Source: Parvibaculum indicum (GTDB taxonomy: Bacteria > Pseudomonadota > Alphaproteobacteria > Parvibaculales > Parvibaculaceae). Taken from it: a DNA stretch of 64,000 nucleotides. How positions within the stretch are numbered: the first letter of the stretch is position 1; every line of letters begins with the position of its first letter. Of the stretch, positions 16,243-59,365 are shown piece by piece. The notes under the pieces were generated by a model. That model was not told where the DNA came from. It made no database searches and worked only from the letters and a program-made list of their open reading frames with translations. The stretch is from the NCBI RefSeq assembly GCF_011762095.1, contig NZ_JAASQO010000004.1, positions 124,001 through 188,000 of the forward strand. Reading direction: 5' to 3'. Position numbers and translations under genes: made by a program.

Positions 16243-17223
16243 CTACGAGCAGATCCCTTTGGTATCTGCTCGTGGATTTTCGGCCAGTTTCGTCAGCTTT
16301 TCGTCATGGTCGGGGCAATCTTCCGGTTCGATCTGCACCGTTGCATGGGTCACGCCATAGCGCTCTGCGAGTCGTTCCTTGATGGCGGTCAGGGCTTCGC
16401 TCGGCATCGCGCCCGGCGCGGGGACGGCATGCAGCGTGACGAGAATGCGGCCCGAGGCGAGCGACCAGGCATGGATGTGGTGGACATCGCTGACCGAGGG
16501 GATGCCGGTGGCGAGGTCTTCGGCCATGGCGTCGGTGTCGAGCCCCTCCGGCGTGCCTTCCATCAGGATATGCGCCGCGTCGCGCGTGACGGCGAATGCG
16601 CCGCGCAGGATGAGCACGGCCACGAAAACCGAGAGGATCGGGTCGATGGGCGTGAAGCCGGTATACATGATGACGATGGCGGCCACGATGGCGGCGACGG
16701 AACCCAGCAGGTCGCCCAGCACATGGAGCGCGGCGCCGCGCATGTTCAGATTGCCTTCGCCGCCGTGGAGCAGCGTGAAGGAGACGATATTCACCACAAG
16801 GCCGACAATGGCGACGACGAGCATCGGTCCGGCAAGGATCGGTACGGGCTCGAAGATGCGCATGGCGGCTTCGGCGATGATCCAGGCGGCCAGTGCGATC
16901 ATTACCGCGCCGTTCAGGAAGGCGGCGAGAATTTCGGCGCGCATATAGCCGAAGGAGCGGGCCGTGTCCGCCGGGCGGCGGGCCAGGCGCACCGCGAGCC
17001 ATGCGAGCGCCAGCGCGCCGGTGTCGGTCAGCATGTGGCCCGCATCGGCGATGAGCGCCAGCGATCCGGATATCCAGCCGCCGGCCGCTTCGACGATCAT
17101 GAAGCCGCCCGTGATCCACATCGCCCAGGCGATGCGGCGCTCATTCGCGCCGTCCGGTACGTGCGAGTGGCCGTGGCTATGAGAATGACCATGACCATGA
17201 TCGTGCGAATGGCTGTGCGTCAT
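16243..17223 (-). CDS. CDF-family zinc (cation) efflux transporter
   Basis: A 326-residue cation diffusion facilitator of the CzcD/ZitB type that exports Zn2+ (possibly Cd2+ or Co2+) by proton antiport. It has a His-rich N-terminus with alternating HS, HG and HD residues and six transmembrane helices. The intramembrane metal sites are ADAGHMLTDTGAL in helix 2 and HVLGDLLGS in helix 5 (HxxxD pairs). The cytoplasmic C-terminal domain includes VHHIHAWSL. Its ATG is 6 bp after the arsR stop, forming a metal-regulated two-gene operon. Confidence 0.93.
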   Translation of the reverse strand: MTHSHSHDHGHGHSHSHGHSHVPDGANERRIAWAMWITGGFMIVEAAGGWISGSLALIADAGHMLTDTGALALAWLAVRLARRPADTARSFGYMRAEILAAFLNGAVMIALAAWIIAEAAMRIFEPVPILAGPMLVVAIVGLVVNIVSFTLLHGGEGNLNMRGAALHVLGDLLGSVAAIVAAIVIMYTGFTPIDPILSVFVAVLILRGAFAVTRDAAHILMEGTPEGLDTDAMAEDLATGIPSVSDVHHIHAWSLASGRILVTLHAVPAPGAMPSEALTAIKERLAERYGVTHATVQIEPEDCPDHDEKLTKLAENPRADTKGICS

Positions 17224-17229
17224 GGTCCT

Positions 17230-17580
17230 TTACTCCGGCTCTTCGTTGACATGGGCGACCATGTCGCGAATGACATGGGCGACCATGTCGCGAATGACAT
17301 GGGCGACATGGGCATCATGGATCGAATAGAAGATCTGCTTGCCGCGCCTGTCTGCGCTGACGAGGCGGGCTGCCCGCAGGAGCCTCAAATGATGACTCAC
17401 CAGCGACAGCGAAAGGCCGAGCCGGCTCGCGATCTCGCCCACGGAGCGCGGCTCGCCCAGCGTTTCCAGCACGATGCGCAAGCGGCTGGGGTCGCCGAGC
17501 AGGCGGAACATTTCCGCCAGTTCGATCGCCCGGTCGTCGTCGAGCGGGGGCAGGCTTTCCGTGTCGGGGCAGATCGCCAT
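17230..17580 (-). CDS. ArsR/SmtB-family metal sensor repressor with duplicated sensing helix
   Basis: A 116-residue winged-helix repressor. The recognition region is SVGEIASRLGLSLSLVSHHLRLLRAARLV. The C-terminal helix contains Asp89, His91 and His102 at the same spacing as the SmtB/CzrA alpha5 zinc ligands (0, +2, +13). The fourth ligand expected at +16 is Arg105. A Glu with the right local context (HVNE) appears at 113, pushed out by an exact 8-residue duplication of AHVIRDMV. It controls its own operon with the CDF exporter through a palindrome overlapping its promoter. ATG 17580. Confidence 0.9.
   Translation of the reverse strand: MAICPDTESLPPLDDDRAIELAEMFRLLGDPSRLRIVLETLGEPRSVGEIASRLGLSLSLVSHHLRLLRAARLVSADRRGKQIFYSIHDAHVAHVIRDMVAHVIRDMVAHVNEEPE
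17247..17307. repeat. 24-bp tandem repeat inside the ArsR gene
   Basis: Two identical 24-bp units at 17247-17270 and 17271-17294, then a 13-bp partial third copy (17295-17307). The period is a multiple of three, so the reading frame is kept and eight residues are added to the sensing helix. Confidence 0.95.
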
Positions 17581-17596
17581 GTTTCGGACCTAACAA

Positions 17597-17639
17597 TTGA
17601 ACATATGTTCAAGTGTAGTCAGTTGGGGCGATCCGTCAA
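17597..17639 (-). promoter_or_regulatory. ArsR/SmtB-type operator and promoter of the arsR-CDF operon
   Basis: TTGAACATATGTTCAA (17597-17612) is a perfect 16-bp palindrome of the SmtB/CzrA operator type. On the minus strand a promoter TTGACG (17639-17634), 16-bp spacer, TACACT (17617-17612) abuts it, so bound repressor would cover the start of transcription. It is 17 bp upstream of the arsR ATG. Confidence 0.85.
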
Positions 17640-59205: not shown

Positions 59206-59299
59206 GGGGGGTACTCCGGACGGAATGTGGCGGTGCGTCATGCTGCGCGCACAACATAGGCAGAACGGCGCGTTTGTCACGGCTTGAAATGCGCATGAT

Positions 59300-59365
59300 C
59301 GAGCGAGGTTGGAGTGAGGTTCGGGCGAGATTGGAATGATGGTGGGGCGAGATAGAGCGCATGCG
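59300..59365. repeat. Three 22-bp imperfect direct repeats between chorismate mutase and ferredoxin reductase genes
   Basis: Units at 59300-59321, 59322-59343 and 59344-59365 share GCGAGRTTGG-like cores; units 1 and 2 match at 17 of 22 positions. The exact 22-bp period equals two helical turns, the pattern of iterated regulator sites. The 347-bp gap (59206-59552) otherwise holds the AT-rich promoter-like stretch 59461-59500 before the reductase gene. Confidence 0.5.

Follow-up and report, generated by a model that had tools for sequence, protein, structure and literature searches.

The alpha5 site of SmtB and CzrA is a standard model in the study of allostery driven by metal coordination. Staphylococcus aureus CzrA is the zinc/cobalt sensor of the czrAB operon, in which czrB encodes a CDF, and CzrA ligand mutants were reportedly the subject of work by Pennella in 2006. 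As set out in the available part of PMC1665450, the Synechococcus SmtB site spans subunits, with D104 and H106 from one and H117 and E120 from the other; CzrA shares this inter-subunit layout but has His in the fourth place, and zinc sensing by SmtB is inhibited when H105 and H106 are mutated together. A tetrahedral metal is described as a requirement for CzrA allostery in the accessible text of PMC7689651. The alpha5 sensor NmtR of Mycobacterium tuberculosis is extended at both termini and uses the N-terminal amine and His3 as additional Ni ligands (available passages of PMC7055735). Alpha5 peptides of mycobacterial SmtB/BigR4 bind Ni(II) through HX3HX3DX3HX2ED and, when one His is removed, acidic residues become more involved in the binding (available passages of PMC9241078).

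The repressor described here is a private variant of this well-known protein and not a new system. It shares with CzrA the ArsR fold and the pairing of repressor and CDF exporter genes, and an alignment that is ungapped through residue 103 places D84, H86 and H97 of CzrA on D89, H91 and H102. It differs from CzrA in that the fourth ligand, H100, corresponds to Arg105, and in that its last helix is predicted to exceed that in the model of a one-unit sister protein by about two turns. With SmtB it has in common a TGAACA..TGTTCA-type palindrome, which we take to be similar to smtO/P, and the alpha5 signature DxHx10Hx2E of SmtB is found in all 79 of its other distinct homologues counted below. The equivalent of Glu120 of SmtB is, however, shifted by 8 residues, and the Cys-rich alpha3N ligand set is absent, since the only Cys of the protein is Cys5. 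The sister Parvibaculum repressor (MAG CPC32, L008/L089) has the same operator and the same start of the CDF gene behind it, but carries AHVIRDMV only once and keeps the fourth ligand intact. NmtR is the best PDB match by sequence (E 3e-16); it has a fourth alpha5 ligand, His107, where the protein here has Arg, and its His3 has no counterpart, as residue 3 is Ile. The protein thus departs from NmtR-type Ni/Co sensors as the available text of PMC7055735 defines them (N-terminal amine, His3 and a D/H/H/H helix).

The repressor gene, its operator and the exporter

The window, that is, the whole stretch of 64,000 nucleotides that was analysed, is part of contig C4 in a genome of 4.02 Mb. The repressor gene (17230-17580, minus strand) encodes 116 residues, which matched the Pfam models HTH_5 (44.9 bits, cut-off 22) and HTH_20 (42 bits, cut-off 27) and the NCBIfam metalloregulator model NF033788 (82.3 bits, cut-off 55). 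CzrA and SmtB followed NmtR among the best PDB relatives by sequence, and CzrA and SmtB entries headed the structural list; the AlphaFold2 model was closest to CzrA (Z 14.6, 97 residues aligned, rmsd 3.5), with other CzrA entries tied. These profile and structure matches identify the protein as an ArsR-type winged helix-turn-helix repressor. The gene behind it (16243-17223, minus strand) starts 6 bp past the repressor stop codon and encodes a 326-residue exporter with a His-rich N terminus. Its scores of 151.5 bits with Cation_efflux (PF01545, cut-off 26.6) and 270.5 bits with TIGR01297 (cut-off 82.35) place it in the CDF family. Zinc is its likely substrate, short of a firm assignment, because the score with the ZitB equivalog model NF002923 (335.5 bits) was under the cut-off of 408.

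A perfect 16-bp palindrome, TTGAACATATGTTCAA (17597-17612), 16 bp upstream of the repressor start codon, is the putative operator, and its position at the repressor's own promoter is that expected of an alpha5 sensor. It was the sole exact match to TTGAACANNTGTTCAA genome-wide. When up to two mismatches were allowed, six forward matches were found, the exact one counted, versus five for a reversed-pattern control, and the inexact matches are thus background. The palindrome is identical in the sister. In each of 25 genus loci, counting that of the window, the best candidate operator upstream of the repressor departed from the pattern by three mismatches at most (12 exact, 4 with one mismatch, 6 with two and 3 with three, as raw pattern counts). 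All 25 loci also had a same-strand CDF gene downstream of the repressor, which a contig end cuts in L089, L096, L102 and L107. The preliminary description had read the locus as an arsR-CDF operon with an alpha5-type sensor, and the profile matches, the structure comparison and the genus loci all agree with a descendant of such sensors in an operon of this kind.

With one repeat unit omitted, the repressor and its sister differ by 21 synonymous and 2 non-synonymous codons (dN 0.008, dS 0.33), a ratio that averages the whole time since the sister split and neither dates the duplication nor shows selection after it. The low dN/dS, the identical palindrome and the kept gene order together indicate that the arsR-CDF operon is maintained. 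Gene decay was rejected on the same grounds, as frame, operator and operon are intact.

We also searched the genome's other ArsR loci above the Pfam cut-off for a backup alpha5 sensor. The pattern DxHx10Hxx[EHD] was absent from the repressor frame in all six (L001-L003, L005-L007); the single match among them, at L006, lay elsewhere, on the opposite strand. Seven CDF-family matches, five of them over the model cut-off, were found in the genome (G000). Export capacity may thus be redundant, should induction of this operon be poor.

A perfect tandem repeat and its likely origin

The sensing helix is encoded in part by a perfect 24-bp tandem array of 2.5 copies (17247-17307, minus strand) that reads AHVIRDMV AHVIRDMV AHV. 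Unit 1 covers residues 93-100 (17281-17304, minus strand) and unit 2 residues 101-108 (17257-17280, minus strand), including His102, Arg105 and Asp106; a 9-bp partial unit follows. Tandem Repeats Finder, run on the window with a minimum score of 40, reported the array with period 24, 100% matches and a score of 122. The runner-up in the window was an imperfect 22-bp tandem repeat at 59299-59353 with a score of 68. At lag 24 the longest exact self-match was 37 bases, while in 40 simulated windows of identical second-order composition the maximum was 16 for lags of 6-100; a chance repeat was therefore rejected. The perfect 24-bp duplication of AHVIRDMV noticed in the preliminary description was thus recovered in full.

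The resulting protein stretch is D89-A-H91-V-A-H94-V-I-R-D98-M-V-A-H102-V-I-R105-D106-M-V-A-H110-V-N-E113. Duplicating AHVIRDMV is equivalent to inserting IRDMVAHV after V103. MAFFT sets the eight extra residues directly after H91, and the placement is arbitrary; we chose the one after V103. Because the unit itself carries H102-V103, the core helix is untouched and only the fourth-ligand position and the tail are altered. The duplication can thus be read as a C-terminal extension that leaves the residues through Val103 unchanged.

An error of sequencing or assembly, with a true gene of one unit, is most improbable. The 61-bp array fits within an ordinary short read, keeps the frame and lies inside a 301-kb contig of a genome estimated at 100% complete and 0.86% contaminated. 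Moreover, assemblers tend to collapse repeats and not to add them.

The 9-mer GCCCATGTC occurs four times, opening both units and also standing just ahead of unit 1 and just behind unit 2, and a hairpin, GACATGG-TCGC-CCATGTC, lies inside the array, with seven pairs and -5.6 kcal/mol here versus six pairs and -4.7 kcal/mol in the sister. The four copies framing the units, with the hairpin within, point to replication slippage as the origin: slippage between 9-bp direct repeats, probably hairpin-aided, would have added the 8-residue unit, in an order of events reconstructed from the present sequence. The codons suggest how the substrate came about. For the Val ahead of the tail, the sister and 22 of 22 genus relatives use GTG where the codon here is GTC, so that the lineage has become more repetitive; the Val92 codon is GTC here and GTG in the sister and 15 of 22 relatives. 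At His94 the sister has CAC and the gene described here CAT (15 CAT, 3 CAC and 4 CGC among the relatives), a change that is unpolarised. Such codon changes yield identical 9-mers and hence a good substrate for slippage.

The same features could be taken to mean that the array is a contingency locus, switching reversibly by slippage between a one-unit inducible and a two-unit blunted sensor. The perfect repeats, the identical 9-mer at each unit boundary, the GTC codon of a lineage grown more repetitive and the hairpin potential would all suit such a switch. We nevertheless regard it as highly unlikely, given that two 24-bp units are a weak slippage substrate and that all 24 other genus loci have a single unit, one genome of the species having been compared.

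Distribution of the repeat among homologues

The sister reads HDAHVAHVIRDMVAHVNEEPE, with one unit and a helix otherwise alike. A search of the genus returned a match at E 1.5e-39 or better in 24 of 26 other genomes, and weak matches only in G009 and G014, which are 71% and 74% complete. As all 24 of these loci have one unit, an ancestral or genus-wide repeat was rejected. More widely, 113 loci with a match reduced to 87 distinct sequences, 80 of them at 95 bits or more; the 7 below 95 bits, apparent paralogues, were left out of the count. The motif DxHx10HxxE was found ungapped, and always with Glu, in 79 of the 80 distinct homologues, the exception being the window's own protein, and none of the other 79 has an AHVIRDMV-type repeat. 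The scan of named genomes covered the best 80 of 138 relatives, with peptides of the window protein as search patterns. When the last 70 residues at all 113 loci were examined for a perfect repeat of 5-12 residues, only the window's own copies (L004, L088) had one. The preliminary description had left room for the repeat being common to all orthologs, and the sister and the 79 homologues speak against this.

Searches of the order and the class listed 38 and 55 matches, of which 32 further loci were considered, at least three of them redundant (the tails of L136, L145 and L158 are those of L021, L029 and L054). The motif with Glu at +16 was present in 31 of these 32, including L138, and an internal tandem repeat in none. 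The exception, L154 (G049:C34), is a distant homologue at 56% identity that ends ...DEHIRRVLSDMVEHVVFG, without a fourth ligand; by eye, the frame behind it begins unlike a CDF. L154 is perhaps a metal-blind descendant, and loss of the fourth ligand would be survivable at least there. No relative was found on plasmids (E <= 1e-15) or on viral contigs. Thus, among the genomes examined, with one genome per species, the repeat is by sequence comparison private to this genome and derived. Among the titles and opening parts of abstracts listed from the open-licence literature, none reports such a duplication in these sensors.

Dating is weak. The preliminary description had taken perfection of the repeat as a sign of recent origin; the two 24-bp units are indeed identical and the second is absent from the sister, and since recency rests on these two points the date itself is only loosely constrained.

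Two side observations concern the related sequences. Seven loci (L042-L048), in records titled Paracoccus (three), Pseudogemmobacter, Gemmobacter, Erythrobacter (MAG) and Maricaulis (MAG), have 3.8-4.3 kb in common at 99.9-100% DNA identity around a related alpha5 ArsR gene; any one plasmid record covers at most 22% of the shared segment. Such identity suggests that the segment moved very recently between distantly related alphaproteobacteria, or else that the two MAGs are mis-binned. In a record titled Bacillus subtilis SK6B4, L053 encodes an ArsR 59% identical to the alphaproteobacterial one of the window, possibly through contamination or mislabelling.

Probable consequences for the metal site

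D89 and H91, the first two metal ligands (codons Asp89-Ala90-His91 at 17308-17316, minus strand), are invariant in the 26-row alignment A1. The preliminary description had placed Asp89, His91 and His102 at the spacing of an alpha5 zinc site, with the ancestral Glu displaced to residue 113 and Arg105 in its stead. Its residue numbers were right, and both parts hold against CzrA and the 79 homologues. The Arg105 codon (17266-17268, minus strand) occupies the fourth-ligand position, at +16, and the displaced Glu113 is encoded at 17242-17244 (minus strand). With three residues of the signature DxHx10Hx2[E/H] present and Arg in the fourth place, the repressor is, in terms of its sequence motifs, a derived variant of the SmtB/CzrA-type alpha5 sensors and not a full member.

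In AlphaFold2 monomer models the last helix spans residues 90-112 here and 90-104 in the sister, a predicted lengthening of two turns. Confidence in the extension was moderate (block means 77 and 64), and the input alignment for the window protein placed the extra residues after H91. On an ideal helix, Glu113 would lie about 12 Å beyond the lost Glu (8 residues at 1.5 Å), and a simple shifted four-ligand site is therefore unlikely. A slid dimer register, pairing Asp89 and His91 with His110' and Glu113', was set aside, as a subunit shift of about 12 Å would be expected to disturb the spacing for an unchanged operator.

We favor, with a probability of roughly 55%, the reading that an ordinary autoregulatory zinc-type CDF repressor has gained an 8-residue unit by slippage and that, as a result, it binds zinc, and leaves DNA in response to zinc, only weakly or not at all. 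Fold, dimer and operator binding would be kept. The inter-subunit site would retain Asp89, His91 and His102', with Arg105' replacing Glu, so that tetrahedral zinc binding, and with it zinc-driven release, would be impaired or abolished; since CzrA allostery needs a tetrahedral metal, this is the simplest expectation. The exporter would in that case respond only to higher metal, or fail to be induced altogether: with full loss of release it would stay repressed, and with partial loss the threshold would be raised. Counting against this expectation, three of the four ligands remain and Asp106 directly adjoins the position of the lost Glu; with water as an alternative ligand beside the remaining ones, zinc sensing may survive.

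These last points also bear on a near-neutral reading, in which the unit is a tolerated C-terminal extension, Asp106, water or the flexible tail serves as fourth ligand and the zinc response stays in the normal range. Variable tails, and the chance that Asp106 or water might serve, make near-neutral function credible: the 79 homologues have tails of 3 to 19 residues behind the fourth ligand, so that extensions there are tolerated, and the core through V103 is unaltered in the two-unit protein. An Asp four residues past a His, as in Asp106 and His102, has a spacing able to chelate on a helix. In mycobacterial alpha5 peptides, acidic residues become more involved in Ni(II) binding once one His is removed, according to the available text of PMC9241078. 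Still, we consider the near-neutral reading rather unlikely, as Glu stands at +16 in every one of the 79 other homologues, Arg is a poor metal neighbour and, by the wheel angles of an ideal helix, the directions of Asp106 and of the lost Glu are about 100° apart.

It is quite improbable that the added unit constitutes a new or second metal site (His102-Asp106-His110-Glu113) with a changed metal choice, for instance towards Ni(II) or Co(II). The repeat does line up His and Asp residues on one helix as the ladder HX3DX3HX3DX3HX2EE, similar to the HX3HX3DX3HX2ED through which the mycobacterial peptides bind Ni(II) in the accessible part of PMC9241078. However, this ladder drifts by 40° per step around the helix, operator and exporter are unchanged, and no homologue examined bears the repeat. 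The two extra ligands of NmtR are moreover N-terminal, as the available text of PMC7055735 has it, and the N terminus of the window protein is without His. We attach a similarly slight chance to a broader version, in which one slippage event rebuilt the allosteric site into a His/Asp ladder past His102 with a different metal or a new threshold, possibly reversibly, because the same repeats could contract again. Were this ladder reading true, a population could hold both sensing states.

Returning to the favored reading, in which zinc-driven release is reduced or abolished, the change is more likely to be a variant of recent date, mildly harmful or conditional, than an adapted new site. In this natural allele three ligands stay in register, the fourth has become Arg and two helical turns are predicted to have been added. 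It offers a ready-made test of how important the fourth ligand and the helix end are, with the one-unit sister protein as matched control. The allele also exemplifies how repeats in a helix-coding stretch can alter a regulator in one in-frame step.
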